25,907 nucleotides of DNA. It comes from a virus. The stretch covers positions 1 to 25,907 of IMG/VR virus record IMGVR_UViG_3300009481_000085. One strand, given 5' to 3'. The stretch's first letter is position 1. Every line of letters starts with the position of its first letter. The notes under the pieces are model-generated. The model saw nothing but the letters and a program-made list of their open reading frames with translations, was not told the DNA's origin and made no database searches. Below, piece after piece: positions 1 to 21,547 of the stretch. Made by a program: the position numbers and the translations under genes.

Positions 1-213
1 TGTTTCGTATAATGGTTTAGTACCTGTAATACCGCTGTTATGTCTTATAATTAAAGTAGATTTTTTTAACGGAGGCATTACACCTTTATCTATATTTTTT
101 CTAGCACCTTTTACGGAGCTTCTTGCATATCTGGAAGCTGTTTTTTCAAGTATTCTTGGCAAATTACTTGCTAATTTAGCAAAGCTAAATGTTACTTTAG
201 TCTTAATCTCCAT
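1..213 (-). CDS. virion morphogenesis / tail completion protein, C-terminus off window
   Basis: This frame opens at an ATG (211-213) and stays open to the window edge, giving 71 residues without a stop. It begins MEIKTKVTFSF. Near the edge it reads PPLKKSTLI, then GITGTKPLYET. That pattern (proline, basic residues and S/T-L, later G-KPL-x-x-T) is typical of the phage virion morphogenesis / HK97 gp10-like tail-completion families, which act at the head-tail junction. It overlaps the end of the portal C-terminal frame by 11 bases and so is the third gene of the minus-strand packaging operon. The family call rests on motif resemblance and position. The truncated 3' end prevents a length check. 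Confidence 0.6.
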   Translation of the reverse strand, partial: MEIKTKVTFSFAKLASNLPRILEKTASRYARSSVKGARKNIDKGVMPPLKKSTLIIRHNSGITGTKPLYET

Positions 214-511
214 TTTCTTGTCCTGAATCACCTTCCTGCATTGCTTGTAGATGCTCATCTTCCATAGCTTCTTTGTTTTTTTCTACTACTTTTTCAGCTT
301 CAGGTCTAGATAAATCCTTATTATACTCCATAAGAAGGTCTACTTCATCCATCATGTGATGTCTGAGTCTATGTTCGTCTAAAAGTATCTGATCTTGAAC
401 AGTTTTTGGATATTCAGGCTCATTAAAGTCTAATTTTAAGCTTTCAGGCAGTTTAATATTGTTATAAGCAGCAATTTCTCTCTCAATATAGTATAATTCA
501 TGATCATACAT
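203..511 (-). CDS. portal protein, C-terminal part after in-frame amber stop
   Basis: This open frame of 102 residues lies in the same reading frame as the portal gene just upstream and is separated from it only by a TAG (521-523) and three sense codons (Leu-Trp-Arg). Its content looks like the C-terminal region of SPP1/HK97-type portals: an acidic helical stretch with the motif VDLLMEYNKDLSRPEAEK, matching the usual portal tail pattern of 'S/D-x-x-x-LM-x-x-N-x-D-L-(T/S)-x-x-EA'. Joined through the TAG, the product would be about 441 residues, close to the usual size of such portals. A GGAGG directly abuts the ATG at 511, which is too close to serve it well as a ribosome site. It is therefore best read as a portal fragment and not as an independent gene, although separate translation cannot be excluded. 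Confidence 0.65.
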   Translation of the reverse strand: MYDHELYYIEREIAAYNNIKLPESLKLDFNEPEYPKTVQDQILLDEHRLRHHMMDEVDLLMEYNKDLSRPEAEKVVEKNKEAMEDEHLQAMQEGDSGQENGD

Positions 512-520
512 CCTCCAAAG

Positions 521-1528
521 CTATAAATCGTATTGATAATCTTCAAATCTCTCTAAATCTATGATTTTAAGAGCTATTCCTGAAGGAGTTTCACCACCAT
601 CTTGAGCAAATTGGACATATAAGTGGTTATTTTGAGCAACTAGGTCTACTTGGAACTTAATATTCTCAATAACTGACTCAATATTACCCTGTGGCGATAC
701 AATATCGAATGTTGCACCTTCAGGAAGGTCAATTATCTGGTCAGAACCTGCTCTTTCGATTCTTTTGTCTGAATCTACACCTGTCATATAAGGTTGTCCA
801 AACATTTGGAATCTTAAGCCAAGTTGCATCTCTGTCATCGCAATATTTACATGCTCATTGCAATCTACGATGTCATTAGCCCCATCTACATAAAATTCAT
901 CTATTTGTTCTTCTCTGTGAGTAAATAAAAATGGTAAAACACCATATCCATGCTCATATTCTTCAATTATATTGCCATCTTCATCATAATGAGCATAAAT
1001 TGACTCATCCCAATAAGCCCATTCGCATTTTTCAACAAAAGAAACATCATCAGGCTGCATTAATAGTGGGTACATAATAGCTGAAGGTGTAAATGCATCT
1101 TTTAAATGTACATTAAAGTAATAAACAGGTCTGTAGTCAAAATAAGGCATGCCATTTACTTCTTTATATATAATTTGTGTAGCAACCGTTCCCATTAAAC
1201 GAGTCATTCTTTCCACATGTTTCATTCTAGCATCTTTTTTTATAGTCAAAAGATCATATTGTTTGTTTACATTGCGATTTGCTCCAACTGTATAAATTCT
1301 ACTCATTTTATTAACAAATCTTCTAGTAAAATTAGCATTATAGCAGGGAACTTCTTGAAATGCAGAAGAATTAAAGTAGCTTTCAATATACTGATTGGTT
1401 GCATTGCCTCCATAGTAGTTGAGCATTTTTCTAACCCAATTTCTTCGTTGTTTTTGATTTAATTGCTTAGCCTCAGATACTGATTGTTTTATTATTTCCT
1501 CTACTGCCATTTTTTGATTATAAATCAT
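521..1528 (-). CDS. portal protein, N-terminal 335 residues, ends at in-frame TAG
   Basis: The portal forms the dodecameric ring at the packaging vertex through which terminase pumps DNA and onto which the tail is later attached. The call rests on position directly after the large terminase (ATGA overlap at 1525-1528) and on sequence style: an amphipathic N-terminus, YNANFTRRFVNKMSRIYTVG (the segment that usually precedes the wing), an acidic middle with FLFTHREEQIDEFYVDG, and GGETPSGIALKI near the end, the conserved 'S-G-x-A-L' clip/stem region of SPP1-type portals. Translation stops at TAG (521-523), but the same frame continues with portal-like C-terminal sequence. Either the gene carries an amber mutation or assembly error, or the stop is read through. 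Without the remaining roughly 105 residues the crown and part of the wing would be missing. Confidence 0.8.
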   Translation of the reverse strand: MIYNQKMAVEEIIKQSVSEAKQLNQKQRRNWVRKMLNYYGGNATNQYIESYFNSSAFQEVPCYNANFTRRFVNKMSRIYTVGANRNVNKQYDLLTIKKDARMKHVERMTRLMGTVATQIIYKEVNGMPYFDYRPVYYFNVHLKDAFTPSAIMYPLLMQPDDVSFVEKCEWAYWDESIYAHYDEDGNIIEEYEHGYGVLPFLFTHREEQIDEFYVDGANDIVDCNEHVNIAMTEMQLGLRFQMFGQPYMTGVDSDKRIERAGSDQIIDLPEGATFDIVSPQGNIESVIENIKFQVDLVAQNNHLYVQFAQDGGETPSGIALKIIDLERFEDYQYDL

Positions 1529-2838
1529 CTTGTCCTCACTTTAAATTCTCTGTTTTTTATTGGAAATTGGTTAATAAAGAAATATCTTATCATATCACAT
1601 CCATGATCGTGATAACCATCTTTTACAGGCTCAGGCTTTAAATCTGAACCTTCTTTTGGCTCTGGATAACGATAATTCTCTAAATCTTTCATTATTTGTG
1701 TACATTTTTCATTTATATGAAGAAATCTCTCTCCTGCTGCATTTTCTACAAATCCTCTTACATGAGATATACCTGATGCTATATTTCTTGATATTTTATC
1801 TCTTTTTGTATGCACCTGGATACCTTTTCTTTTAAAGATTTCTATATCTCCTAATCCTGATTGTCCTTGAGCTTGCATTCCTGCAGGGTCACCGTAATAT
1901 TTTCTAACATTATAATTCCTTGATAGTATAGAGTCAGCAAGTACATCAGTTTTAACATTTGTCTTGTGTATTATTTCATCTATCATATTTATATGCCAAA
2001 TTCCACCAACTCTATTTAACTGAAACCAACCAACTGCTGGCATTCTATAACCAAAATCTATACTGCAAAAAGTAGGAAAGTTTGGATTGTAAGGAAACTT
2101 ACCTACATCTAAATCTCTTTCAAAGGGATAAACTCTACCTGCAAAAGAAGTAAACTTAGCTCCATATTCTTGTTCATAAACCTCTTTAGCCATATTCCTC
2201 TTTCTTTCAAGTAGAAATTGGTCGCTTTTACCGTTAGGGAAGGCAAAATGGTTATCCCAAGATGGAGCTTGATGCGATTCCCATAATTCATCTTCTTTGC
2301 CGAGGAGATACAAATCATACACCCAATTAAAACCTTCAGGAGTAGTTATGAATATTGCCTTACCCTTACGGTCAGATAGTGTGGGAGATAAATACATATC
2401 CCATATTTTTCGTTTTACTTTAGCAGCTTCATCAATAATCAGAAGATCTAATCCCTCTCCTACTAGAGAATCAGGGTTATCTGCAGATTTAGCCTCAACT
2501 GTAGTACCCCATTTAAATTTTATAATTCTATCTTTTTCTGAGGCTCTTACTATGTCATTTGGATGCCCAATAACCATCTTTTGCCAAATTTCTCTAAACA
2601 TTAAATCTGCTTTATCATAGGATAAGCCAACAAGCCATATTCTTTTATTGGGCTGCGAAGCATAATATGTGGCTTCCATTGCAGATGCAGTTGTTTTACC
2701 AAACCTTCTCCCACAAACCATGACAAAAAACCTTGCTGTACTTTTTCTTGGAAAATGAAGTTTAGATTGACCGAAATGGGGGTTATACCCCATAAAATCA
2801 AACCATTTTTCTTTATATTCTGTAAGTGATTTTTCCAA
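1525..2838 (-). CDS. terL: terminase large subunit
   Basis: This is the packaging motor ATPase and headful/cos nuclease. Over 437 residues it shows a Walker A motif GRRFGKTT (about 43-50), a Walker B motif LLIIDEA (132-138), the coupling motif TTP (165-167), and a C-terminal RNase H-like nuclease with acidic residues in SIDFG (D261), GDPAG (D317) and DHGCDMIRY (D411/D415). Length and domain order are normal. The longest open frame begins at a TTG (2836-2838) with a stop four codons upstream. There is no good Shine-Dalgarno for it, and the next in-frame ATG is at residue 16, directly before the conserved GYNPHFGQ, so the exact start is uncertain. No small terminase is visible upstream on this strand. 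The divergent promoter region lies just upstream. Confidence 0.95.
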   Translation of the reverse strand: MEKSLTEYKEKWFDFMGYNPHFGQSKLHFPRKSTARFFVMVCGRRFGKTTASAMEATYYASQPNKRIWLVGLSYDKADLMFREIWQKMVIGHPNDIVRASEKDRIIKFKWGTTVEAKSADNPDSLVGEGLDLLIIDEAAKVKRKIWDMYLSPTLSDRKGKAIFITTPEGFNWVYDLYLLGKEDELWESHQAPSWDNHFAFPNGKSDQFLLERKRNMAKEVYEQEYGAKFTSFAGRVYPFERDLDVGKFPYNPNFPTFCSIDFGYRMPAVGWFQLNRVGGIWHINMIDEIIHKTNVKTDVLADSILSRNYNVRKYYGDPAGMQAQGQSGLGDIEIFKRKGIQVHTKRDKISRNIASGISHVRGFVENAAGERFLHINEKCTQIMKDLENYRYPEPKEGSDLKPEPVKDGYHDHGCDMIRYFFINQFPIKNREFKVRTR

Positions 2839-2935
2839 TAATTTGCATTATTACCTATTATTAATTTAAGTTATCTATAAGTATTATGCAAAAATTAGCA
2901 AAATACAGTTAAAATAATTAACAATGGAGGACAGT
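2839..2935. promoter_or_regulatory. divergent intergenic region with candidate promoters and repeats
   Basis: This is the only divergent junction in the window, so both the packaging operon (minus) and the scaffold/capsid operon (plus) should have promoters here. On the minus strand TTGCTA followed after 16 bases by TATAGA is a weak -35/-10 pair. On the plus strand TATTAT at 2882-2887 is a possible -10 without a good -35. TTTGCAT (2842-2848) and ATGCAAA (2886-2892) form an inverted repeat, and GCAAAA recurs at 2888 and 2898, one helical turn apart. All of this could arise by chance in such AT-rich sequence. The promoter assignment is inference. Confidence 0.35.
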
Positions 2936-3460
2936 ATGTCCGAAGACAAAACAACAGCAGTTGAAGAAACAGTTAGTGAAACACCTGCTATAGAAACTAC
3001 TCAAGATAGCTCTAATGAGCAGTATATTGCAGAAAGCAAAAAGTATAGAAAAAGAGCTCAGGATGCTGAAAATCGTTTAGCTAAATTAGAAAAAAGTCTT
3101 GCTAGAGCAGAAGAAGATAAACTTAAAGAAAAAGAAGAATTTAAAACCTTGTATGAAAAGGCTTCTTCTGAAGTTGAAGGTTTATCTGCTAATGCTGAAA
3201 AGTGGGCTAAGTATGAGGAAGTTAAAAGAAATTCTTTACTAGAAAACCATCCTGAAGATGAGAGAGAATCTTTATCTAAGTTAGATTTAGAAACTCTTGA
3301 ATATGTCACAAGTAAAATTAACAATATTAAACCAAATGCTCCAGAGGTTTTAGGTAATGCAAGAAAAGATTTGCCTAGCAAGCCTTATTCTCAGATGACA
3401 GATGAAGAGAGAAAAGAAAATTGGAATAGTATTGTAAATCAATTTAATAATAAACTTTAA
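2936..3460 (+). CDS. capsid scaffold protein
   Basis: The product is 174 residues, hydrophilic and highly charged, and directly precedes the major capsid gene, the usual place for a phage scaffold that guides procapsid assembly and is then removed. Residues about 25-90 are rich in Glu, Lys and Ala with heptad-like spacing (coiled coil). The C-terminus ends in a short basic/amphipathic helix (DEERKENWNSIVNQFNNKL), as in scaffolds whose tail contacts the coat. An ATG 12 bases upstream (2924) is in frame, but GGAGG at 2926-2930 lies inside that extension and is spaced five bases from the ATG at 2936, so 2936 (MSEDKT) is the likely start. No protease gene is seen beside it. Confidence 0.75.
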   Translation: MSEDKTTAVEETVSETPAIETTQDSSNEQYIAESKKYRKRAQDAENRLAKLEKSLARAEEDKLKEKEEFKTLYEKASSEVEGLSANAEKWAKYEEVKRNSLLENHPEDERESLSKLDLETLEYVTSKINNIKPNAPEVLGNARKDLPSKPYSQMTDEERKENWNSIVNQFNNKL

Positions 3461-3502
3461 AACTCTGAAAAATGAGGGTCTATAAGACATCAAAACAGAG
3501 TT
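3461..3502 (+). promoter_or_regulatory. hairpin-forming leader upstream of capsid gene
   Basis: AACTCTG (3461-3467) and CAGAGTT (3496-3502) are perfect 7-base inverted repeats separated by 28 bases. They fill most of the gap between scaffold and capsid genes and end just before the capsid ribosome site (AGGAGA near 3508). The arrangement could protect the capsid message 5' end or mark a processing site. No T-run follows, so it is not an intrinsic terminator. The repeat is seen; the role is speculative. Confidence 0.3.
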
Positions 3503-3518
3503 AAATTAGGAGAAATAA

Positions 3519-4589
3519 ATGGCTTTAACTGATCCTTTAGGGTCTAATATACTTATTGGTGGTCTACAAGGAAAAGCAGCACATGGTGCTGATAATGATA
3601 CAATAGGTGATCAGTTTGTTCCAGAAGTTTGGGGGCAAGCAATATTAGATTCTTTTCAAAAAAACACAGTAATGACAAAACTTGGTACAGATTTGTCAGG
3701 ATTGGCACAAAATGGTGGTGATGTAATTAATTTACCTCATGTTGGTGTTCCAATCGTAAAAGCAGTAAGTCAAGCTGCAGAAACAATCGCAATGGATGTT
3801 TCAGGTAGTGATACTGCAACAACAACACAGCTTAAATTCGATGAGCATTATGTTGCTCCTGTATTTATACCTGATGCTGTTCAAGCACAAGCAACTTATG
3901 ATTTGTTTAATTTATATGCAGGTCAAATGGGTTATGCAATTTCAAAGACAGTAGATAATTATTTAATGTCTACAGTTGCAAATGCCTTATCAGGTGTTCT
4001 TGGAAGTGGCGATGGTGTAAATGGAAATGCAACAATGAATGTTGAAGTAGCAGCTACCTTTGTTCCTGCTGACTTAGCAGAACTATTGCCTTTAATTATA
4101 GGTGAAACAGGAAGCACAGAAGGATGGACATTGGTTCTAGGTAAAACTTGCTATGGTGCTCTTGCAAATACTAGCAATTTTGGAAACTCTTATACTTTAG
4201 GTACACAGGGTACTCCATTAGGTGCAGGGTTTGCTAGCACAGGTGTTGCAGGATCTTTACTTGGTATGCCTGTAATTGCATCTAATAGTGTTTTCTTAGA
4301 TGATGGTGCTGTTGCTGCAAATGCAGAAGCAGGTATTACTAAAGCTTGGACAGGTTTTGATACAGGTTCAAGTGGTGCTGATACTGATGATGATGATTTA
4401 CTTAGAGGTTTTGCAATACATAACTCTGCTTTGTATTGGGGAATCCAAAAATCTTCAGTTAAGCAATCTTATCAACACACATATATGTCAGACTTAGTTT
4501 CTGTAGATGCTATATATGGTGCTGTTGCAAGAACTGCTGATTCTGCAGGTGATAGAAGAATCATCGCATTAACTGATAGCTTAGATTAA
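3519..4589 (+). CDS. major capsid protein
   Basis: This 356-residue protein, directly after the scaffold, is most likely the HK97-fold coat protein. Its N-terminal half resembles P22/N4-type coat proteins: DQFVPEVWGQAILDSFQKN near residue 30, an E-loop-like region around DVINLPHVGV, then a long helix with SKTVDNYLMSTVANAL (spine-helix-like, 'D-x-x-L'). The C-terminal half reads LVLGKTCYGALAN followed by LLGMPVIASNSVF, the usual A-domain strand order. A ribosome site AGGAGA lies about six bases before ATG. A strong intrinsic terminator follows 20 bases after the stop, suggesting that scaffold and capsid form a separately terminated, highly expressed unit. The family is not resolved beyond HK97-fold. 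Confidence 0.85.
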   Translation: MALTDPLGSNILIGGLQGKAAHGADNDTIGDQFVPEVWGQAILDSFQKNTVMTKLGTDLSGLAQNGGDVINLPHVGVPIVKAVSQAAETIAMDVSGSDTATTTQLKFDEHYVAPVFIPDAVQAQATYDLFNLYAGQMGYAISKTVDNYLMSTVANALSGVLGSGDGVNGNATMNVEVAATFVPADLAELLPLIIGETGSTEGWTLVLGKTCYGALANTSNFGNSYTLGTQGTPLGAGFASTGVAGSLLGMPVIASNSVFLDDGAVAANAEAGITKAWTGFDTGSSGADTDDDDLLRGFAIHNSALYWGIQKSSVKQSYQHTYMSDLVSVDAIYGAVARTADSAGDRRIIALTDSLD

Positions 4590-4608
4590 TAGTTAATTTG
4601 ATATAAAT

Positions 4609-4639
4609 AAATAGGAGGGCAGCTTTGCCCTCCTATTTT
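4609..4639 (+). terminator. intrinsic terminator after major capsid gene
   Basis: A perfect 13-base-pair stem (4609-4621 with 4626-4638) includes a GC-rich core AGGAGGGC/GCCCTCCT, closed by a four-base GCTT loop and followed by a short TTT run. It stands out strongly from AT-rich surroundings and sits 20 bases after the capsid stop codon. The T-tract is short, so some read-through into the lysis genes is likely. Confidence 0.9.
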
Positions 4640-4657
4640 AATATAAAGGAAGATATA

Positions 4658-4798
4658 ATGTATTCTGAATTAGAAAAAGATATTAATAATTATAATAAAA
4701 AAAATGGAAAAAATAAATCCAACATTTTTATTTACGACAAAGAATATCAAGAAAAGTATAATAAAATTTTTAGGAAAAAAACAAATGAATCTGCTTAA
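4658..4798 (+). CDS. 46-residue hypothetical protein
   Basis: This short frame starts MYSELEKDINNYN, with GGAAG six bases before ATG, and is the first gene after the capsid terminator. It is rich in Asn, Lys and Tyr, hydrophilic, without a membrane segment or recognisable motif. Its last 14 bases overlap the lysozyme start at 4785, an arrangement that suggests translational coupling and helps fix the lysozyme start. Function is unknown. Confidence 0.5.
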   Translation: MYSELEKDINNYNKKNGKNKSNIFIYDKEYQEKYNKIFRKKTNESA

Positions 4799-5210
4799 TG
4801 GTATTAAAAAACATGAAGGCTTTAGATCTAAAGTATATCAATGTACAGAAGGATATGATACGATAGGATATGGGTTTGCTATAAAAGATTTAGAATTAGA
4901 TGAAGATGTGGCAGAGCTTATTCTTATGAAAAAAATACAAAAATTGTTAGAAAGAATTTTAGTAGCTTTTAAATGGTTTAAAAGTGCCCCTGAAGAAGTT
5001 AAATTTGTTGTCACTAATATGTGTTATCAACTTGGAATACGAGGATTTAGTAAATTTAAAAAAACAATATACCTATTAGAAACAGAGCAATACGAGGAAG
5101 CTTCAGTAGAAATGCTCGACTCCTTATGGGCAAAACAAACACCAAACAGAGCTAAAGAACTTAGCGAAACATTAAGGGGTATAAATGGACACACTAAAAA
5201 CAGCGATTGA
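4785..5210 (+). CDS. T4-type lysozyme (GH24 endolysin) with Cys at the Asp20 position
   Basis: This muramidase would cleave peptidoglycan at lysis. From the ATG at 4785 the protein (141 residues) aligns without gaps to the T4 lysozyme active site: E11 in KKHEG, Thr26 in DTIGYG, and position 20 (VYQCTEGYDTIGYG) is Cys where T4 has the catalytic Asp. T4 lysozyme tolerates D20C, so activity is plausible. The later part contains NMCYQLGIRGFSKFKK, matching the T4 region around 'NMxFQxG'. The frame extends upstream to 4704, but that extension overlaps the 46-residue gene, lacks a ribosome site and would shift the family's N-terminus. There is no signal peptide, so release should need the holin-like protein encoded at 5185. 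Confidence 0.88.
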   Translation: MNLLNGIKKHEGFRSKVYQCTEGYDTIGYGFAIKDLELDEDVAELILMKKIQKLLERILVAFKWFKSAPEEVKFVVTNMCYQLGIRGFSKFKKTIYLLETEQYEEASVEMLDSLWAKQTPNRAKELSETLRGINGHTKNSD

Positions 5211-5352
5211 ATCAAAAGCAGGCACTATAGCTCAAGGATTAGGGGGTATAGGGCTATCTTATATAGTATTAATACCTATTTGGCTTAGAATAGGAATTTT
5301 ACTGGGAATCTTTATTAATGTTTGGTTAAAGCTTCTTAGAGAAATTAGGTAG
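5185..5352 (+). CDS. small membrane protein, holin candidate
   Basis: This 55-residue protein begins 26 bases before the lysozyme stop, in a different frame. After a hydrophilic N-terminus (MDTLKTAIESKAG) come a glycine-rich hydrophobic stretch (about 18-30) and a second hydrophobic run (about 36-50, IGILLGIFINVWLKL), ending in basic residues (KLLREIR). One or two membrane segments with a basic tail directly after an endolysin gene is the usual picture of a holin, which opens the inner membrane for a signal-less lysozyme. Ends with TAG. The holin role is inferred from position and topology, and other small membrane proteins downstream compete for it. Confidence 0.6.
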   Translation: MDTLKTAIESKAGTIAQGLGGIGLSYIVLIPIWLRIGILLGIFINVWLKLLREIR

Positions 5353-5411
5353 GAAATTAGGAATTAATATTTTTCTATACTAAATTATTTTACAATAAAC
5401 AAGGTAAATAT

Positions 5412-6197
5412 ATGGCTTTAAAGGATAAAGGAGTTGTCAATAGAGCTATTGTCACTCCTGATAAACACTTTCCTTTACATGACAAACCAAGTATAAATGT
5501 ATTATGTAAAACTATTGAAATAGTTAAGCCTGATATATATGTAGATCTTGGTGATATAGGTGAGTGGAGTGCATTTTCAGCATGGAAATACAAAAGAAAG
5601 AAAGCACCCCCCTTAGAATTTATGATTCCTGATATGGATGCAGATGTTGATGATGTTAATAAATGTATGGACATTGTTGATGAATCCCTTGATAAAGCAG
5701 GTTGCGATAAAAAATATATAACCGAAGGTAATCATGACAACTGGCTTAATATGGCAGTTGAAAAATATCCTTATATATCTAAATATAAATTTGCTACAGC
5801 AGTAGATTTAAAGGGTAGAGGATATACATATTATCCTTTTGGAAAACACTTAAAAATAGGCAAACTTTACTTTTATCATGGGCATCAATATGGAGGTCAA
5901 TATCATACATCTAATCATTTAAGGAAATTAGGATGCAATATAATGTATGGACATTGGCATGATTTACAACAGATGTCTGCAACTCACATGGATGGTGCTA
6001 AATCAGCTTGGTCGATTGGATGCCTCAAAGATATGTCAGATGAGGCAAATTCATGGCTTGGTAATAGAAGAATTAACTGGGCTCACGCATTTGCTATAGT
6101 TGATTTTTATAAAAATGGTCTTTTTACAGTCCATATTATACAAATTATTAATGGAAGAACATCTTTATGGGGAGAATTGATAGACGGTAATAAGTAA
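5412..6197 (+). CDS. calcineurin-like metallophosphoesterase
   Basis: This 261-residue enzyme has the full set of metal-ligand motifs of the calcineurin-like superfamily: DKH (D17/H19), DLGD (D45/D48), GNHD (106-109), HGH (156-158) and GHWH (180-183). Such proteins hydrolyse phosphomono- or phosphodiesters using two metal ions. The substrate here cannot be read from sequence. Members occur in many phages (for example the lambda phosphatase) and sometimes act on nucleic acids or phosphoproteins. It sits between the lysozyme/holin pair and a run of membrane proteins, an odd place for a nucleic-acid enzyme. A possible -10 (TATACT, 5376-5381) lies upstream but lacks a good -35. AAGG precedes the ATG by about eight bases. 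Confidence 0.88.
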   Translation: MALKDKGVVNRAIVTPDKHFPLHDKPSINVLCKTIEIVKPDIYVDLGDIGEWSAFSAWKYKRKKAPPLEFMIPDMDADVDDVNKCMDIVDESLDKAGCDKKYITEGNHDNWLNMAVEKYPYISKYKFATAVDLKGRGYTYYPFGKHLKIGKLYFYHGHQYGGQYHTSNHLRKLGCNIMYGHWHDLQQMSATHMDGAKSAWSIGCLKDMSDEANSWLGNRRINWAHAFAIVDFYKNGLFTVHIIQIINGRTSLWGELIDGNK

Positions 6198-6224
6198 ATA
6201 TTTATTATATTATGACGGAGAATA

Positions 6225-6587
6225 ATGGAAAAAGAAACAATAGAAGGACTGATTGGTCAATACGGCTGGATGGCTGTAGTAGGATTCTTTTTCCTTATAG
6301 GTCGTAATACTATAGAATCTCTTATAGAGGCTATAAAAGTTTTTGCAGGAGATGATTTAAATACTGACGATGTAATACATTTTGATGGCAGACCTGCTAG
6401 GGTCGTTAGGGTAGGTTTGTGGAAAACAGTTTTATTTATATATGAAGTGGGTTGCGTAGACGGAAAACCTTTTGTTAAAGGTGGAAATAAAGTCGCAATT
6501 CAAAATGATAAGCTAAAAGATCATCTTATTGAAAAGCCTTTACCAATGCTTGATTTAAAGAGATGGGATGATTGCGAGAAAGAATAA
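6225..6587 (+). CDS. small MscS-like membrane protein
   Basis: This 120-residue protein has one clear membrane segment (about 12-27, GWMAVVGFFFLIG), then an amphipathic helix, then a segment that resembles the pore-lining helix and beta domain of the small mechanosensitive channel MscS. DDVIHFDGRPARVVRVGLWKT (48-68) corresponds to the 'GD/GE-x-I-x-x-G-x-x-G-x-V-x-x-I-x-L-x-x-T' strand pair, and KVAIQNDKL (89-97) to the 'V-x-IPN-x-K' motif. MscS itself is far longer (three membrane helices plus a C-terminal alpha/beta domain), so this would be a minimal version, or a lookalike. A ribosome site (ACGGAG) is suitably spaced. The next gene overlaps it by one base. Role unknown: osmotic control, or a contribution to lysis. 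Confidence 0.55.
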   Translation: MEKETIEGLIGQYGWMAVVGFFFLIGRNTIESLIEAIKVFAGDDLNTDDVIHFDGRPARVVRVGLWKTVLFIYEVGCVDGKPFVKGGNKVAIQNDKLKDHLIEKPLPMLDLKRWDDCEKE

Positions 6588-6673
6588 TGACAGCACTTGG
6601 ATATTTTATATTAGGTTTTACAATAGTGTTCGTTTCAGGGCTACTAATAATGTACGATGATTTGGAGGATTAA
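6587..6673 (+). CDS. 28-residue single-span membrane peptide
   Basis: The ATG overlaps the stop of the preceding gene (TAATG). The peptide is one hydrophobic helix (about 4-22, LGYFILGFTIVFVSGLLI) with an acidic tail (YDDLED). The bases encoding its end include a GGAGG that serves as ribosome site for the next gene. It is too short for homology-based assignment. Tight coupling on both sides supports it being real, possibly a pinholin or antiholin-like accessory. Confidence 0.5.
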   Translation: MTALGYFILGFTIVFVSGLLIMYDDLED

Positions 6674-6940
6674 ATGTTACAAGCAATGCTAGCTAAAAAA
6701 GCAATCGATATTATACTTAAAAAGGTAATGGAGAAAAGGGAGATTAAAAAGCTTCGTAAGTATGTTGAGGATGATAATGAATTAGACATACAAGTAAAAC
6801 AGATGCAAAAGACTATAGCAAAACAGGGAAAAACTATTGAAAAAAATGAAGTAGATATTGCTAAGTTAAAGGTAGACTCACATCCAAAAAAAAAATTTCA
6901 TGTATGCAAACAATGTAAATGTAAATTAAAGGAGAAATAA
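6674..6940 (+). CDS. coiled-coil protein with C-terminal cysteine cluster
   Basis: This 88-residue protein starts right after the 28-residue peptide, with GGAGG about five bases before its ATG. Residues about 8-66 are highly charged with heptad-like Ile/Leu/Met spacing, suggesting a long coiled coil. The C-terminus holds a compact HVCKQCKCK cluster (H76, C78, C81, C83), which could bind a metal or form disulfides. There is no membrane segment or lipobox, so it is not a recognisable spanin. Function is unknown; placement in the lysis/membrane cassette is the only hint. Confidence 0.65.
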   Translation: MLQAMLAKKAIDIILKKVMEKREIKKLRKYVEDDNELDIQVKQMQKTIAKQGKTIEKNEVDIAKLKVDSHPKKKFHVCKQCKCKLKEK

Positions 6941-6941
6941 T

Positions 6942-7091
6942 ATGTTAGAATTATTAACAAGTAATTGGGAGTATTGTTTACTTGCACTATATGTGCTTGA
7001 AAAAGGAATAAAACTTAGTCCATCTAAAAAAGATGATCTAGTTTGGGATATGGTATTAAAACCTATAGTGGATAAAATTAAAGGTAAATAG
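6942..7091 (+). CDS. 49-residue small membrane-associated protein
   Basis: A good ribosome site (AAAGGAGA) lies seven bases before the ATG at 6942. The N-terminal part (about 8-22, NWEYCLLALYVLEKG) is hydrophobic and could be one short membrane span. The rest is amphipathic with a lysine-rich end. It stops with TAG at 7089-7091, and the G of that stop is the first base of the next gene's GTG start, implying translational coupling. Small proteins of this form are common near lysis or tail-fibre genes in marine phages. Exact role unknown. Confidence 0.55.
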   Translation: MLELLTSNWEYCLLALYVLEKGIKLSPSKKDDLVWDMVLKPIVDKIKGK

Positions 7092-8542
7092 TGCCAAAAA
7101 GAAGTATAAATAAGAGTCAGCCTAAAGATTTTGAGCCTAAAAAGAAAAACCCAATTTCTTTAGGTAATGACTCTAATATTGATAATGATTTTAAACCTTT
7201 TAGAATAGGGGGAATAGATACAGGGCTTGAGTTTAAAAATGGTGAAATAAAATCTTCTGCAAACAACTTTATAACATTACAAGAAACAACTGAGATATTA
7301 AATGTTACTAAAATAAAGGGGAATAGAAGTGGTAGTCAAGAAGTACCTAATTTTATATTTCAAAATCCTGATCCTACTTCTCCTGATACAGGTCTTTGGG
7401 TAAATGTTGCAACAGGAGGATTGTCAATATTAAGGTCTTATGGGTCTGCTGCACACATGGTACAACAGTCAGAGTCAAGTTTTTTCTTTGTAGGTGGTGC
7501 AGATGATGGAGATTTAATAAAGTGGCAAAGAGGCACTAGCTGGCTTACTCCTGATAGCACAGCAATGCAATTAGATTTATATAATACTAGTTTAAGCATA
7601 TTTGATAGGTCTGATGAAGGTGATTATTTTAAAATAGATGTTACTACTCATGGAGCTACTACAATATCAACTGTAGACGATGATGCTACTGCAGCACATT
7701 TAACATTGGATGTTGATGGCGATATACTATTAGAAACTGAAAGAGATTTTGCTGTAGATTCTGAAAGAGATATAATTTTAGATGCAAGTAGAAATACAGC
7801 TACTACATCTGATTTTTTATTGGTTGCAACTAAAAAATTATTTTTTGATGGTGGTTTTAACACATATATAGAAGAACAAAGTGCTGATTTATTAAATTTT
7901 AAAGTGGGTAATGTGGATTTATTTGCTCTTAAAGAAGATGCTACAACATCTGCTGCCCAGTCAAGCATAGTATTTACAGGTTGTCCAATTCAATTAAAAG
8001 ATATTGGAGGAGTTGCTGATACACCTGGTTCTGGGTTTGGCTCTTTGTATGTTAATAGTGATGAATTGTTTTATAAAAATGATAGTGGAACAGTAAACAG
8101 ATTAGATACAGCAAGTAAGTTTTTTCTTAATGTTGGTTGTTATTATGCTACAAGTATAAAGAAATGGCTACCATTAGCACAAGGTGAGTATGACCAAACT
8201 ACATATCCAATAGATTATGCAACTGATAATGCAAATTTTGTTGTTCCTTATGATATGAAAATAAATACTATATATGTAAACCACAATAGACAAAATTCAG
8301 GACAATCACAACCAGGAAATACAGATATACAATTATATAAAGGTGGCTCTGTATATTCAGCAAATGTAACAGTTGATATTAATGGTTCTGGTTATGATGC
8401 AACAAACACAGCAATTGTATATACTTTTGATTTTAGTGGAGAAACTAATACTTTTGCAGCAGGACAGGTAATGGCAATATCTTTAGACCCAACAAGCACA
8501 TCATATTATTTTGCTATAACCATATGTGGAGAATATGTTTAA
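7091..8542 (+). CDS. tail fibre / receptor-binding-like structural protein
   Basis: This 483-residue protein begins at GTG, overlapping the previous TAG. The N-terminus is basic and hydrophilic, followed by RIGGIDTGLEFKNGEIK (about 38-54). A middle region of short repeated beta strands (LTLDVDGDILLETERDF, then VDSERDIILDAS, about 203-233) is typical of trimeric beta-helical phage fibres. The last 140 residues look like a beta-sandwich with regular aromatic strands, ending FAITICGEYV. The C-terminal domain resembles that of the 260-residue protein encoded at 8717 in strand pattern (GCYY or GCYW, then 'VPYDMKINTIYV' or 'VPDNITIDRVVW'). A fibre or decoration role is inferred. The lack of a clear chaperone gene after it leaves the receptor-binding assignment open. 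Confidence 0.6.
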   Translation: MPKRSINKSQPKDFEPKKKNPISLGNDSNIDNDFKPFRIGGIDTGLEFKNGEIKSSANNFITLQETTEILNVTKIKGNRSGSQEVPNFIFQNPDPTSPDTGLWVNVATGGLSILRSYGSAAHMVQQSESSFFFVGGADDGDLIKWQRGTSWLTPDSTAMQLDLYNTSLSIFDRSDEGDYFKIDVTTHGATTISTVDDDATAAHLTLDVDGDILLETERDFAVDSERDIILDASRNTATTSDFLLVATKKLFFDGGFNTYIEEQSADLLNFKVGNVDLFALKEDATTSAAQSSIVFTGCPIQLKDIGGVADTPGSGFGSLYVNSDELFYKNDSGTVNRLDTASKFFLNVGCYYATSIKKWLPLAQGEYDQTTYPIDYATDNANFVVPYDMKINTIYVNHNRQNSGQSQPGNTDIQLYKGGSVYSANVTVDINGSGYDATNTAIVYTFDFSGETNTFAAGQVMAISLDPTSTSYYFAITICGEYV

Positions 8543-8576
8543 TTAAAAATTAAATTAATAAACGAGGAGAAATAAA

Positions 8577-8717
8577 ATGAATTACGAGGAAAAATTAAAA
8601 GAATTGCAAGAAAATGCAGAAAAGTTTAAAAATGCTTATATTAAGTGCATGGGAGCAATCGAATTTTTAGTATCTGAGCAAGAAAAAGCTCAAAAAGATA
8701 AAAAAAAGGATAAATAA
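8577..8717 (+). CDS. 46-residue coiled-coil hypothetical protein
   Basis: A strong ribosome site (GAGGAGA) precedes the ATG at 8577. The product is a charged helix (MNYEEKLKELQENAEKFK at the start), with a short hydrophobic patch (MGAIEFLV) and a lysine-rich end. Its TAA shares a base with the next ATG (TAATG). It could be a small trimerising or chaperone-like partner of the flanking fibre proteins. That is inference from size, helicity and position only. Confidence 0.5.
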   Translation: MNYEEKLKELQENAEKFKNAYIKCMGAIEFLVSEQEKAQKDKKKDK

Positions 8718-9499
8718 TGGCTAGTTTTACAGGAAGTAGTATTAAAAATGTATATAAAGATATTTTACATACATCTAATTCAAACACAGGAATAAACACG
8801 TCTATAAAACAAATTACTTGTGGTGATGGAGATACGACTTCTTTATATTTATCTAATCAAAATGCTAAAGTTCAACCTGCATCAGATTCTACTACTAATA
8901 CTGTTATTTATGATGCTGATGGAAATGCTTTATTTACAGTTGATTCTACTAATGATTTAGTAAAAGCAGGAATAGGACAGCATACTTTAAATACGCAGTA
9001 TGCTACATTTGGAATGACTTCAACTTATTCTTCTATGTCTGCAAATACACATTATTCTATTGCATCAACTTTAACAATATCTAATACTACACCTTTAGCT
9101 ATAGGAACAGGCACAAATCCTGATACAAGTTTAACTGTAGCAACAACAGCTCATGAAGTAATTGGCTGTTATTGGTTTGTTCCTGATAATATAACTATAG
9201 ATAGAGTAGTATGGCTTAGTGCAGCTGATACAGCTACAGGAGATACAACTAGAGCACATTTAATGAGTTACGATATAGACACAGGCAATGGCTCAACAGG
9301 TGGAGATTTATCAAACGGAACAGTTTTAGCAGATGGTGCAGATGTAACAAACGCAGGATATGAACAGGCATATTATCAGCAAATGACAATTCAATCAGCT
9401 AATGTAAACGCAGGTAAAGTTGTACTATTTACATTTAGATCTGATTCAGTAAATTCAGATTATTCAATTAATGCAACAGTCAAATATCATTTAAGGTAA
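8717..9499 (+). CDS. structural protein with C-terminal beta-sandwich (fibre/decoration)
   Basis: This 260-residue Thr/Ser/Asn-rich protein begins MASFTGSSIKNVYKDILHTSN, a start style seen in phage structural proteins that attach to virions. A central NTVIYDADGNALFTVDSTND strand repeat (about 61-80) is followed by a C-terminal domain of about 110 residues (from HEVIGCYWFVPDNITIDRVV) similar in pattern to the end of the protein encoded at 7091. No enzyme motif is seen. The pair may be alternative or cooperating head fibres or tail fibres; neighbours are other structural genes. Start is fixed by the TAATG overlap. Confidence 0.55.
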   Translation: MASFTGSSIKNVYKDILHTSNSNTGINTSIKQITCGDGDTTSLYLSNQNAKVQPASDSTTNTVIYDADGNALFTVDSTNDLVKAGIGQHTLNTQYATFGMTSTYSSMSANTHYSIASTLTISNTTPLAIGTGTNPDTSLTVATTAHEVIGCYWFVPDNITIDRVVWLSAADTATGDTTRAHLMSYDIDTGNGSTGGDLSNGTVLADGADVTNAGYEQAYYQQMTIQSANVNAGKVVLFTFRSDSVNSDYSINATVKYHLR

Positions 9500-9512
9500 A
9501 AAGGGAGTAAGG

Positions 9513-11075
9513 ATGGCACAGGCAAATATAAATTTAAGTATAAATGGAAATTCATTTTCAAAATCAAAAGCATATAATAATATATATGAAAATGCTCAAG
9601 AAATAGATAACACAGATGGATTTATAAATATTTTAACAGTATCTACAACAAAAGGAGCAAATACAGTTAGCAATATTAAAGCTGTATGTGTTTATAATCA
9701 AGGAAACGTTGGTGCAGAACTACAATTTACATATCAAGAATGGAAAAATAATTCTAATACTGACGATGCTAATTCTGTAGATACAGGTGGAGGAGCTACG
9801 GTCACAAGATATGCTACGATGCTTTTGCCTGCAGGAGAGTTTATGTATTTGCCACATGGAAGATTAGTAGGTTATAATGCTGATGCTTCTGCTGCTAATG
9901 CAACTTCTATTTCTAATGTTGCACCTGATTCTAATGAATATGTAGATAGTGGAGCTGATGTAGACCATGCAACATCAGCAACAATGGGCTCTGATGCTAC
10001 TCATACTACTTTAAATTTAGAAAATGGTCATTCAAAATATTTTAAAAGAGGTGATTTAATTCGATTAGAAGATGAAATATGTGAGGTAACTGCAGTTGGT
10101 ACAGGTGCTGATTTAGCTAATAGTACATTAACCATTATAAGAGGAACTCATGGCTCTACTGCTGCTACTCATGCAGACGATGTTGCTGTAAGATTTCCAT
10201 TTTTTAATGCCTATAATAATTTTGATAGATATACTGTTGCACAAACAAATAAAGATGGAAAATTTAAAGCTATGAACTTTTTTGGTTATGGAAGAACTTC
10301 TGATACAATATCTGATGGAATTGTTCCTGGTTCTGTGACATTTAAGTTTTATAATTCTGGTTATCAAGAAATTGGATTATCAGGAATTACTGCTAATACA
10401 AATACAGGATTGTCTGCTTCTACAACTTATTATTTTAAGATAGCAGTAGATGGAGGTTCTGCTTATGAAGTTGCATTTACAACAGACTCATCAAATGTTA
10501 ATTTTGGGGGCAAAAATGGTGTTTTAAGCAAGATTCAAGACATATTGGATACTCAGTATTACACAGAAGGTAATCTTTTTGAAAAAAGAGTAACTGTAGG
10601 TATTGTAAATGGAGATGTAAGATTTACGTCAGGTTCTTTTTTAGCTACATCTGCAATAGCTTTAACTGCAGGTACAAGTGGAACTGCTAATACTGATGAA
10701 CTTTTTGATGGTACAAACCAAATAGCAAGATTTCCTGCTAAAGTAGAGTCTGCTGTAGCTGCTAGACTACCTGAAGATACACTATTCAACAGAGTAACTT
10801 ATGAAGAAAATCCAAATGTTGGAGCATTTATGTATGATGATGGTAATGGTAATTTAGTTGGAGCAGGATCAGGTACTATAAATTATGAAACTGGAGCTGT
10901 AGATTTTACTGCAATGTCTAATGCTGAGTTTGTAATATCTGCAACTTATTTATCTGCACATAGTGGTGGAACTAATGTGTCTACTGCTAATGGTCATAAT
11001 CATTTGACTGCTATTGGAGCAAGAAGCACAAATCAAAAATTAAATGCTACAGTTAAAGTGATAGCATTAAACTAA
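9513..11075 (+). CDS. large structural protein with inserted beta module
   Basis: This 520-residue protein is rich in Ala, Thr, Asn and Gly and carries no catalytic motif. Residues about 142-228 hold a module containing KRGDLIRLEDEICEVTAV, then LTIIRGTHGSTAATHAD. The pattern 'GD-x-I-x-x-x-x-E-x-x-x-V … RG-x-x-G-(S/T)-x-A-x-x-H' recurs in many phage structural proteins and in the adaptor encoded at 11445. The C-terminal part (AHSGGTNVSTANGHNHLTA) is His/Asn-rich. Position before the head-tail joining genes suggests a decoration, head-fibre or neck protein. The start at 9513 has a GGGAG ribosome site. The function cannot be narrowed from sequence alone. Confidence 0.55.
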   Translation: MAQANINLSINGNSFSKSKAYNNIYENAQEIDNTDGFINILTVSTTKGANTVSNIKAVCVYNQGNVGAELQFTYQEWKNNSNTDDANSVDTGGGATVTRYATMLLPAGEFMYLPHGRLVGYNADASAANATSISNVAPDSNEYVDSGADVDHATSATMGSDATHTTLNLENGHSKYFKRGDLIRLEDEICEVTAVGTGADLANSTLTIIRGTHGSTAATHADDVAVRFPFFNAYNNFDRYTVAQTNKDGKFKAMNFFGYGRTSDTISDGIVPGSVTFKFYNSGYQEIGLSGITANTNTGLSASTTYYFKIAVDGGSAYEVAFTTDSSNVNFGGKNGVLSKIQDILDTQYYTEGNLFEKRVTVGIVNGDVRFTSGSFLATSAIALTAGTSGTANTDELFDGTNQIARFPAKVESAVAARLPEDTLFNRVTYEENPNVGAFMYDDGNGNLVGAGSGTINYETGAVDFTAMSNAEFVISATYLSAHSGGTNVSTANGHNHLTAIGARSTNQKLNATVKVIALN

Positions 11076-11084
11076 GGGGAAAAT

Positions 11085-11177
11085 ATGCCATACGGAAAAG
11101 GAACATACGGAAAAAAGAGGGGTAGACCTTCTAAAAAAATGAAGAAAAAAGTAGTTAGAAGAAAAAGGAAAAAGTGA
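11085..11177 (+). CDS. 30-residue highly basic peptide
   Basis: The peptide begins MPYGKGTYGKKRGRPSKK and then consists almost only of Lys, Arg and Val, with no acidic residue at all. A ribosome site (AAGGGGA) precedes the ATG. RGRP resembles an AT-hook core, which binds the minor groove of AT-rich DNA. It is one base short of touching the next gene, also very basic, so the two are likely co-translated. A nucleic-acid-binding or DNA-neutralising virion role is plausible but unproven. Confidence 0.65.
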   Translation: MPYGKGTYGKKRGRPSKKMKKKVVRRKRKK

Positions 11178-11178
11178 A

Positions 11179-11436
11179 ATGGCTAAATATCAAGGAAAAT
11201 CGGTTCGATTAAATAAACCTTCAAGAATTACAAAAGGTCAGCCAGGGTATGGTCGCAAAAAATTTAAAGTATTTGTTAAAAGTGGTAGCAAGGTTAAGAA
11301 GGTTATGTTTGGTGATCCTAATATGAGGATTAAAAAATCTAGTCCTGCAAGGAGAAAGTCTTTTAGAGCTAGACATAAGTGTTCTACAGCAACAGATAAA
11401 ACAACAGCAAGGTATTGGTCTTGCAAGAAATGGTAG
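11179..11436 (+). CDS. 85-residue basic conserved phage protein
   Basis: The protein is strongly basic. Its second half reads MFGDPNMRIKKSSPARRKSF, then RARHKCSTATDKTTARYWSCKKW. This signature, 'FGDPNM-x-I-(K)-x-x-x-P-x-RR-x-SF-x-A-RH-x-C', is recognisable as a small family common in marine phages and large viruses, with conserved Cys, His and Trp residues that could bind a metal or DNA. Its function is not established. Here it sits between structural genes and directly follows a 30-residue basic peptide. TAG ends the gene and a ribosome site for the next gene follows immediately. Confidence 0.7.
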   Translation: MAKYQGKSVRLNKPSRITKGQPGYGRKKFKVFVKSGSKVKKVMFGDPNMRIKKSSPARRKSFRARHKCSTATDKTTARYWSCKKW

Positions 11437-11444
11437 GAGAATAA

Positions 11445-12683
11445 ATGGCGACAGCACCAACATATTGTACACATAGACAATTAAAGGATGTATTTCCTCA
11501 AGTAGATTCATTTGATAATAAAAGACCTTTATATGGATGGGAAGTGGGAGTAGAAGATTTTTATGATAGCACTATAGATACTTACTATACTTCAAATACA
11601 GGTTTAGTTACACAATTATTTTGGGATGGTTCGCAAGTTGATAAAATTTCATTTAATACTACAGAAACCACTCAGGTTGCTACAGAGTTAAGCCCATCTG
11701 CTTCAACTCTTGTTTTAGATAGCACATCAGGGATAGGTGCAAGTGATATTCTAAAAATTAATAATGAATATTTAATGGTAGGTTCAGTAGATGATGGAAC
11801 TACTATTACTTTAACATCCTTGGCATCCAAAAGAGGTATGTTTGGAACTTCTGCTCAAAAACATCCTGTTGATTCAAGTGTTTATTTAATCGTAGATGCA
11901 AGTACAGAAATAGGAGATTCTACTTCTCAAGGTATAGATGCTTTAAGTTTTTTTTATGATACAAATTTAGATACTTGTGTTTTAATAGTAAGTGGAGCTA
12001 ACCCAAATGATTATTTGGTTGAGGCAGGAGAAGATTTTTCTACTTTAATTACTAGAATCACATCTAATGCTAGTAGATATTTAGATGCTAAATTAGACCC
12101 TAATCTACCCAAAGAACAATTAAGAGATAAATCAGGTAATTTTGATTATATAATAATAAGAACAACTGCACTTATAGCAGCTACATTTCTTATTAGAAGC
12201 CATGACCCAACATCTGAAATAGCAAATGCACTTATGGAAGATGCAGAGGGTAATATAGATGCTTTAAATAAAGGAGGAGCAGCTTTATCATGGCAAACAA
12301 CAGGCGACTCATCTAAAGGTGTTGTAAGAGATATTACTTATACATCAGGAAGCATAAGACCTGTAGATACAAGAGGAAGATGGTCAGGTACTTGGGATTT
12401 AATAAGGGTTACTATTAGCTCAACTACAGCAGGAGTTATTGGAACTGCTAAATATAATGTATATGTAAAAGATTCAGATGGATTGAAAAATAATCAAGTT
12501 GTAACTGAAGAAGTTATAACAGGCGATTATCAGACTTTAGCAGGAGGGCTTCAAATAAGATTTGGAGGTAAAACAGATGCTTCTACAGCAGTTGCAAATA
12601 ATGAATGGGAAATTGAAGTCTCAGGTTGGGAAGAAGAAGTAGACAATTCTGCTATTAACTCAGTAAGAATGACAAGAAGATAG
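11445..12683 (+). CDS. head-tail adaptor (connector) with inserted beta domains
   Basis: The adaptor sits under the portal and starts the neck. This 412-residue protein opens YCTHRQLKDVFPQVDSFDN (about 7-25), typical of HK97 gp6/SPP1 gp15-type adaptors. It then carries a beta module (about 78-150) with the same 'G-x-x-D-I-L-K-I-N-x-E … KRGMFGTSAQKH' pattern as the protein encoded at 9513. The helical bundle resumes at about 195-275 (ISRYLDAKLD-like region, then IIIRTTALIAATFLIRS), and a second beta-rich region lies at 290-410. Usual adaptors are 100-200 residues, so insertions account for the extra length. It is followed by the tail terminator, which fits the head-tail joining order. Confidence 0.7.
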   Translation: MATAPTYCTHRQLKDVFPQVDSFDNKRPLYGWEVGVEDFYDSTIDTYYTSNTGLVTQLFWDGSQVDKISFNTTETTQVATELSPSASTLVLDSTSGIGASDILKINNEYLMVGSVDDGTTITLTSLASKRGMFGTSAQKHPVDSSVYLIVDASTEIGDSTSQGIDALSFFYDTNLDTCVLIVSGANPNDYLVEAGEDFSTLITRITSNASRYLDAKLDPNLPKEQLRDKSGNFDYIIIRTTALIAATFLIRSHDPTSEIANALMEDAEGNIDALNKGGAALSWQTTGDSSKGVVRDITYTSGSIRPVDTRGRWSGTWDLIRVTISSTTAGVIGTAKYNVYVKDSDGLKNNQVVTEEVITGDYQTLAGGLQIRFGGKTDASTAVANNEWEIEVSGWEEEVDNSAINSVRMTRR

Positions 12684-12703: not shown

Positions 12704-13141
12704 ATGGCAGTAAATTTTACAAACAACTGGAAGAATATTTTAGACAAGTTAGAGTCTATTCTGGAAACAGAATTTAAAGGGGCTCTACCTGTTTATAAGG
12801 GTAAAGATATACCTAAAGGTGTAAATCAAGGTTTACAGCTTATACCTACAGGGTCAGTATTAACTGATTATAATGCAACCTCTGAAACAAGAGAATTTTC
12901 TGTAACTATAAGGTATGTTTTTGCAGAGGCTAATGTAAATGAAAGAGCATTAGACCATATACTTAGACAAATTTCAAGAATAGAAGCACTTATACATGAT
13001 AATGTAGCTATGACACTTTCAGATAGTAGTAATGCTTTTAATTGCAGGTTTGAAAATACAGATTTAAATACTGATGATGAATCAGGGATTTATGTAACAG
13101 AATGGGCATGGAAATGCCAACACTTAGGTAATATAGGCTAG
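12704..13141 (+). CDS. tail terminator / tail completion protein
   Basis: This 145-residue protein has an N-terminal helix (NWKNILDKLESILETEF), then alternating beta strands with an FSVTIRYVFAEA core and a C-terminal YVTEWAWKCQHLG. That alpha-beta pattern and length fit tail terminators of the lambda gpU / SPP1 gp17 type, which cap the tail tube and join it to the head. Placement between the adaptor and the tail tube gene supports this. No other function is suggested. Start ATG at 12704 follows the adaptor TAG by 20 bases. There is no strong ribosome site, so some coupling to the upstream gene is likely. Confidence 0.65.
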   Translation: MAVNFTNNWKNILDKLESILETEFKGALPVYKGKDIPKGVNQGLQLIPTGSVLTDYNATSETREFSVTIRYVFAEANVNERALDHILRQISRIEALIHDNVAMTLSDSSNAFNCRFENTDLNTDDESGIYVTEWAWKCQHLGNIG

Positions 13142-14643: not shown

Positions 14644-15086
14644 CTCTTAATATAATTGCTGAGCCATGTGGAGGCTGTCAGTACGAGAAATACCCTTATA
14701 AAGCTCAGTTACCTGTATTAGTTGATGGTAAAAGACCTACTTGGACTTTTAATTCAGACAAAGATGTTTGGAAAGTAATCGACCTGCTTATACAGGAAAC
14801 TAAGGAGTTTAATGAGAAACAAGGCAAAGAGTTTGATATTGAATCATCAGTTCAAGCACAGTTGCCTTTTTTTTCATGCAAAAATGCTGTTTTTAGCAAG
14901 GAAATGCAAAAAGACATACAAAGGTATATCTATTGCGAGAAGTTCGGTATTTCGCCCTATAAAGGTGATTTTGGAGATCAGCCCTGTTTATGGGTAGATA
15001 AAGCATTTGTAATAAAAAAAGCATTTGCAAGATTAGAAAGTAATCAAATAGAGAAAGCAAGGAAAGATGGCACAAGAAAAAATTGA
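14368..15086 (+). CDS. tail assembly chaperone, -1 frameshift fusion (gpGT-like)
   Basis: A second frame, open from 14574 to the TGA at 15084-15086, has no ATG or GTG and no TTG before 14862, so it has no plausible start for most of its length. Reading from the first chaperone gene with a -1 shift near 14620 gives about 239 residues (86 from the first frame, then about 153). The added part carries EPCGGCQYEKYPYKAQLP, LPFFSCKN and a conserved-looking FGISPYKGDFGDQPCLWVDK. This is the organisation of lambda gpG/gpGT, where the fusion is made at low ratio and chaperones the tape measure during tail assembly. The end overlaps the tape-measure gene by 20 bases. Confidence 0.7.
14619..14676 (+). 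promoter_or_regulatory. probable -1 programmed ribosomal frameshift signal
   Basis: In the zero frame the message reads G GGG GAA GAA AAA (14619-14631). The P-site GGG can re-pair exactly one base back, and A AAA a little further on can do the same. Six bases after the G run, AGCCTCCA (14631-14638) pairs perfectly with TGGAGGCT (14669-14676) around a 30-base loop, a GC-rich stem that stands out here. Slippery run, short spacer and downstream stem are the standard ingredients of a -1 shift. Which run is the real slip site cannot be told from sequence alone. Confidence 0.65.
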
Positions 15087-17073
15087 AATATTATTTAAAC
15101 CAAAAGGTAGTCAGGTATTAATAACTGCTGTTAAAAATCTTGATGTTGCTACAAAAAGACTTCAAGGTCGTACCTCTATATATGAAAAAGAACTTAAAAA
15201 AATGGGGCTTACCCAAAAACAAGTTAATAAATTTTTAAAACAAGGAACTAATAATTTAAGATTACAGACAGGGGCTTTTGCTACACTTCGTTCTAATTTG
15301 CTTTTATATTCATTTGGAGTTGGTCTTGCTCAAAGAGCTATAGTATCTTTTGTAGAAAAAGCAGGAAAAGTAGAAGATCTATCAAGAGGATTTAGTAGTT
15401 TAACAGCATCAATGGGTAGCAGCGCAGATGTAATGAATGCTTTAAAAAAAGCTACCGATGGTACTGTAAATAGTACAGATTTAATGCAACAAGCAAATAA
15501 TGCTATGATGCTTGGAATAGTTAAAAGTAAAGAAGAAATGGCTGAGTTATTTGACACAGCTCAAAGACTTGGTCAAGCTTTAGGAAAAGATACTGTTTCT
15601 TCAATAGAATCTCTTGTTACAGGTATGGGTAGACAATCAAGGCTTATGCTTGATAACCTTGGTATAATTGTGAAATCGTCAGATGCTTACGAAAGATATG
15701 CACAGAAATTAGGAACTACAAAAGATTCTCTAACAGACATGCAGAAAAAAGAAGCATTTAATCAAGAGGTGTTAAGGGTTTCTAAAAAAATTGTAGATGA
15801 TTTAGGAATAGAACATTTAAGTACAAATGCTAAAATTCAAGTAATGAATTCTTCTGTTCATGATTTAAGTGTTGCGTTTGGTGAATTTTTAATACCTGTA
15901 TTGAATATTATGGCAAAATCTTTATTGGCTTTGTCAGAACATTTTGATGCTGAAAAAATTAAAAATTATGCTGTTGCATTAGTGGGGGTAGGATCTGCTT
16001 ATTTAATTGTTAGTGGAACTGCATTGAAAGCTGCAAAAGCATCATTACTTTTTATAAAAACAAACAAAGCATTACTAGGTGTTATGTTAGCAGTTACTGC
16101 AGTTGCTGAATTTTTAGATAGGCAATTTGATTTATTTGGATTAAATACTGATGAATTAGAAAATTCAATAGGTAATTTAAATGATAATCTTGAAAATTTT
16201 GATAGCAATCTTGAAAGCATAGATACTAGAATTAAAAAAATTAATTCAACTCTTTCTTACAATATATCTAATATTAAATTAAATGCTAGCCAAACTGAAG
16301 CATTAACTGATATTGAAGCAAAAGAATTAATCATTAAAGAAAAATTGTCAGCAGCAACAAATCTTTATAATCAACAATTGATAACAGAAGAAGAATTTTT
16401 AACAAGAATTAATAATTTAACTATTGAACAAACAGATTTAGAGTTGCAAGCCATTGAACAAAAAATTGCAAAATATCGAGAATATCAAGATGCTGTTATG
16501 GGCATTTCTAGTAGCATGCTTGCATTAAATTTACAAAATATAGAAAACTCAAGACAGGAAGCTTTAAGTGCTGCAGAATCAATAAGAAGTGAAAGAAGAA
16601 AAAAAGCAGAAATAGACAAAATAAATCAAAAATATGACAATAAAGTCAAAAAACAAAAACAAGCAATGCAAAAAGTTAAAGTTGCTGAAGCTATATCTAA
16701 TACTGCATTGGCTATTACTAAATACCACTCAGAAGGAAAATTAGCTCTTGCAATACTAGCAGGAATACAAGGTGCTATATCTATAGCAACAATAAAAGCA
16801 GAAAAATATCAATATGGTGGTATGGTTGGTGGTCGTAGACATTCACAGGGTGGTACTATGATAGAAGCAGAAAGAGGTGAATATGTAGTATCTCGTAGAG
16901 GTGTAGATGCTATAGGAATAGAAGCTTTAAATAGAATTAATGCAGGTCAAGGTGGTGGATCTGTTAATGTTACTTTTGCAGGTAATGTACTTTCCAAAGA
17001 CTTTATAGAAGATGAAGCAATACCACAAATAAAAGAAGCTATCCGTAGAGGTGCTGACATTGGGGTTGGATAA
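15067..17073 (+). CDS. tape measure protein
   Basis: The tape measure sets tail length and is ejected ahead of DNA. This 668-residue protein follows the chaperone pair, as usual. It shows a helical N-terminus (about 20-66), helices around TAQRLGQALGKDTVSS, two hydrophobic stretches (about 302-350 and again near LALAILAGIQGAISIATI), a long charged coiled-coil region (about 360-560), and a Gly-rich C-terminus (GGMVGGRRHSQGGTMIEAE) typical of marine siphovirus tape measures. At roughly 0.15 nm per residue the tail would be near 100 nm. The start at 15067 overlaps the chaperone fusion and has an AAGGAAAG ribosome site. Confidence 0.88.
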   Translation: MAQEKIEILFKPKGSQVLITAVKNLDVATKRLQGRTSIYEKELKKMGLTQKQVNKFLKQGTNNLRLQTGAFATLRSNLLLYSFGVGLAQRAIVSFVEKAGKVEDLSRGFSSLTASMGSSADVMNALKKATDGTVNSTDLMQQANNAMMLGIVKSKEEMAELFDTAQRLGQALGKDTVSSIESLVTGMGRQSRLMLDNLGIIVKSSDAYERYAQKLGTTKDSLTDMQKKEAFNQEVLRVSKKIVDDLGIEHLSTNAKIQVMNSSVHDLSVAFGEFLIPVLNIMAKSLLALSEHFDAEKIKNYAVALVGVGSAYLIVSGTALKAAKASLLFIKTNKALLGVMLAVTAVAEFLDRQFDLFGLNTDELENSIGNLNDNLENFDSNLESIDTRIKKINSTLSYNISNIKLNASQTEALTDIEAKELIIKEKLSAATNLYNQQLITEEEFLTRINNLTIEQTDLELQAIEQKIAKYREYQDAVMGISSSMLALNLQNIENSRQEALSAAESIRSERRKKAEIDKINQKYDNKVKKQKQAMQKVKVAEAISNTALAITKYHSEGKLALAILAGIQGAISIATIKAEKYQYGGMVGGRRHSQGGTMIEAERGEYVVSRRGVDAIGIEALNRINAGQGGGSVNVTFAGNVLSKDFIEDEAIPQIKEAIRRGADIGVG

Positions 17074-21545: not shown

Positions 21546-21547
21546 AA

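Follow-up and report, generated by a model that had tools for sequence, protein, structure and literature searches.

Base errors in metagenome-assembled phage contigs give rise to spurious premature stops, and it is with these, and with the portal proteins of tailed phages (80alpha/SaPI1, NF5, phiCD508, SPP1 gp6, T7 gp8), that the locus described here can be compared. The window, a stretch of 25,907 nucleotides from IMG/VR virus record IMGVR_UViG_3300009481_000085, carries on its minus strand a putative portal protein gene (203..1528) interrupted by an in-frame amber codon (521..523) at portal codon 336, where relatives encode Glu (61) or Asp (17). As with spurious metagenomic stops, the stop is found in one record only with a sense codon in every relative, while further unique changes lie close by and a contig end is near; the case differs from recognised ones in that its cause is inferred. 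Very probably, the amber codon arose by mistake when this record was sequenced or assembled.

In keeping with tailed-phage portals, the gene adjoins that of the terminase large subunit (1525..2838, minus strand; phrog_2 1.1e-48, Pfam Terminase_6N), which lies directly upstream with a 4-base overlap, and the intact proteins of the relatives are 423-459 residues long. Unlike these portals, its sequence profile matches are weak, with the portal pieces of the window itself matching no Pfam or PHROG family and, among 38 aligned intact homologues, two matching the phrog_145 portal weakly (best 2.8e-6) and three the phrog_104 portal (best 8.7e-4). For the intact homologue encoded by contig L001, an AlphaFold2 model of modest confidence (mean pLDDT 56) was used for a Foldseek search in which the first 36 PDB matches were all phage portals or portal/neck/tail complexes, five of them at E < 1e-3 and the best being 9m6k (E 1.4e-4), 8vde, 8v8b and 9gb5. 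The TM-scores were low owing to poor model quality, such that the fold result supports portal identity rather than proving it. Taken with the weak profile matches, the fold comparison nonetheless leaves the predicted assignment as a portal well supported, though sequence by itself does not prove it. The window also encodes a major head protein (3519..4589, plus strand; phrog_267 1.1e-22), a lysozyme-like protein and a tape-measure-like protein.

The interruption itself is present in the record sequence, with the amber codon at 523..521 of the minus strand. Translation from 1528 to 203 gives 335 residues, the stop, Leu-Trp-Arg, a further 102 residues and then TAA at 203, matching the two same-frame open reading frames at 521..1528 (335 aa, ending in TAG) and 203..511 (102 aa), both on the minus strand. 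This bears out the original prediction of a TAG interrupting the portal frame with LWR and 102 codons beyond it, and of a joined product of about 441 residues (440 amino acids plus the amber position), a size within the range of the intact relatives. TAG had also been named as the ordinary stop of six other genes, and all six ends were found, at 5185-5352 (55 aa), 6942-7091 (49 aa), 11179-11436, 11445-12683, 12704-13141 and 23895-25490, the first two being short reading frames of unproven coding status. TAG does end other reading frames, and the original prediction was right to regard its global reassignment as unlikely.

A search of IMG/VR found 100 relatives, of which 80 were kept. Comparison of the codon across related portals, proposed with the original prediction, gave a sense codon in all 78 relatives that cover the column (GAG 55, GAC 14, GAA 6, GAT 3) and a stop in none, and no split portal occurred among the relatives examined. 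Three contigs (L058, L061 and L062) had been flagged as carrying a stop, which in each lies at codon 5, upstream of the gene's own start and outside the gene body. Across the relatives the reading frame is conserved equally well on both sides of the stop, indicating a single protein that includes the C-terminal part. As a by-product, the comparison reveals a well-populated marine portal family whose 100 IMG/VR relatives have no counterpart among the 50,697 named phage records, against which the portal gave no tblastn match even at E 10; likewise window positions 1-12000 gave no megablast match to named phages, and the species genomes searched yielded no relative. The distal genes, from the tape measure to the tail end (7091-8542 and 15067-25490), are far less conserved than the head genes, their best relatives being 35-52% identical compared with >90% for the terminase.

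An open and conserved frame beyond the stop is what would be expected of programmed or tolerated amber read-through, in which a leaky TAG-C context or a host suppressor tRNA would yield both a 335-residue product and the full-length portal, and the base following the TAG is indeed C. Against this, programmed read-through is marked by a stop conserved at its column in relatives, and here none of the 78 has one, including a contig 99.9% identical to the window. No tRNA gene was detected in the window or in the 27 related loci scanned, and no Rfam structured RNA was matched in the window. Suppressor-tRNA phages are marked by numerous in-frame TAGs together with a suppressor tRNA, and this combination was not seen within the window either. 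Three further changes at invariant residues, described below, would in addition be left unexplained, and read-through of either kind is thus of very slight probability. A true allele would leave an essential virion protein reliant on suppression, for which nothing here gives support.

If the portal were functionally split into two proteins, each with a start of its own, the second start would be an ATG at 511, three codons past the stop and preceded by GGAGG. This GGAGG abuts the ATG with no spacer, and the arrangement varies among the relatives, many of which have TGGCGTATG, TGGAGAATG, TGGAATATG or no Met at this place, such that the candidate internal start for the C-terminal piece was rejected as unconserved and spacerless. 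The break would also fall inside a long helix (residues 323-355) predicted in the modest-confidence model of the intact homologue, and with no divided portal in any relative a split is exceedingly improbable.

The closest record to the window is L082 (IMGVR_UViG_3300024344_000385), which is 99.925% identical to it over 11,981 bases and encodes an intact portal with a sense codon at the amber site; the next-best records are about 91-94% identical. The window and L082 differ at nine positions (503, 523, 532, 561, 5267, 6892, 11987, 12016 and 12021), the first four of which fall in a patch of 59 bases (503..561) corresponding to portal residues 342, 336, 333 and 323, respectively. When nine random differences were simulated, four fell within 59 bases with a probability of about 5e-5. 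At all four sites the window has A on the plus strand (three C/A differences and one T/A), and each change is non-synonymous and unique to the window. Residue 342 is Asp in the window and Glu in 78 of 78 relatives, residue 333 is Tyr as against Asp in 78 of 78, residue 323 is Ile as against Lys in 80 of 80, while the stop at residue 336 replaces Glu or Asp (78 of 78). At no other portal position does the window stand apart from all relatives, L001 and the near twin L082 included. A pattern scan of IMG/VR, in which both bases were allowed at the three 3'-most sites and the sequence 3' of site 561 was fixed, returned L082 alone, of the intact type, and thus no record sharing the patch changes, although such a scan may omit records very near the window. 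The earlier suggestion that one base substitution suffices is therefore correct for the stop itself and misses the cluster of four to which it belongs.

Random errors strike conserved positions freely and selected variants do not. With L001 left out, we counted across all genes the residues private to the window at columns with a conservation of at least 95%. The portal had three in addition to the stop and the remaining testable genes, with about 5,000 positions in sum, had two, none of them in the terminase and head protein control genes, the lysozyme or the phosphoesterase. By this contrast the patch has the character of random error that ignores constraint, and the remaining window that of selected sequence.

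Clustering of substitutions in one short patch could also reflect targeted diversification, by a diversity-generating retroelement or template switching that rewrote it. Neither the template repeat, nor the reverse transcriptase, nor the adenine-specific changes of such a retroelement were found: the window holds no template copy (best ungapped match of the 59-mer 32/59), the proteins scanned gave no match to a reverse transcriptase family and the changes extend beyond template adenines. The patch lies outside every repeat family found in the window and the substitutions improve no hairpin, with the window thus offering neither a hairpin nor a repeat copy as the source. As the changes affect a conserved core residue set and create a stop, diversification has next to no probability; even when it is pooled with read-through and a split portal, the three remain very unlikely.

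The main rival to error is a real, recent but non-functional allele, in which four clustered mutations in a minority or defective genome, or in a damaged DNA molecule, were chosen by the assembler; it would leave the phage making a truncated, inactive portal. The clustered one-directional differences would fit damage to one DNA strand or a tract of error-prone synthesis, yet a dead-end genome should be rare and hence unlikely to dominate the consensus, and none of the four changes is found in any relative, making such an allele an unlikely source of the patch. Fixation of four genuine changes in a sub-population, with the portal needing amber read-through or complementation by intact co-infecting phages, is highly unlikely.

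An error in the record is favoured because the differences are clustered, run in the same direction and are confined to the window while the gene is intact in all relatives. Over a short stretch close to the contig end, at least 503-561, the consensus would probably have been built from a single poor-quality read or a handful of them, with four wrong bases entering it and one of them creating the TAG. In the phage population the portal would be of the ordinary kind, about 441 residues long and uninterrupted; thin coverage combined with read error is our inferred cause of the patch. Against error, the patch lies some 500 bases inside the contig, away from its very end, and L082 is itself flawed over its first 363 bases, though in the portal it is in accord with every other relative. 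Error had been listed first among several options in the original prediction, and it is this one that the patch and the relatives favour, with leaky read-through, a suppressor and functional splitting, listed alongside it, finding no support and leaving the companion changes unexplained. Where a metagenomic phage gene shows a lone premature stop, a close relative should accordingly be searched for differences accompanying it, ahead of any proposal of read-through or splitting.

Some further features concern the ends of L082. Three of its differences from the window (11987, 12016 and 12021) fall within its last 44 bases, an excess at its far end that is as expected from poorer sequence at contig ends. 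At its other end, bases 1-363 code for a protein resembling a bacterial lipid A acyltransferase (PF03279, 2.5e-17), with the phage sequence joining at window base 50, while window bases 1-49 are collinear with the phage relatives L027 and L050. The start of L082 is probably a chimeric assembly join made via a short shared AT-rich stretch.
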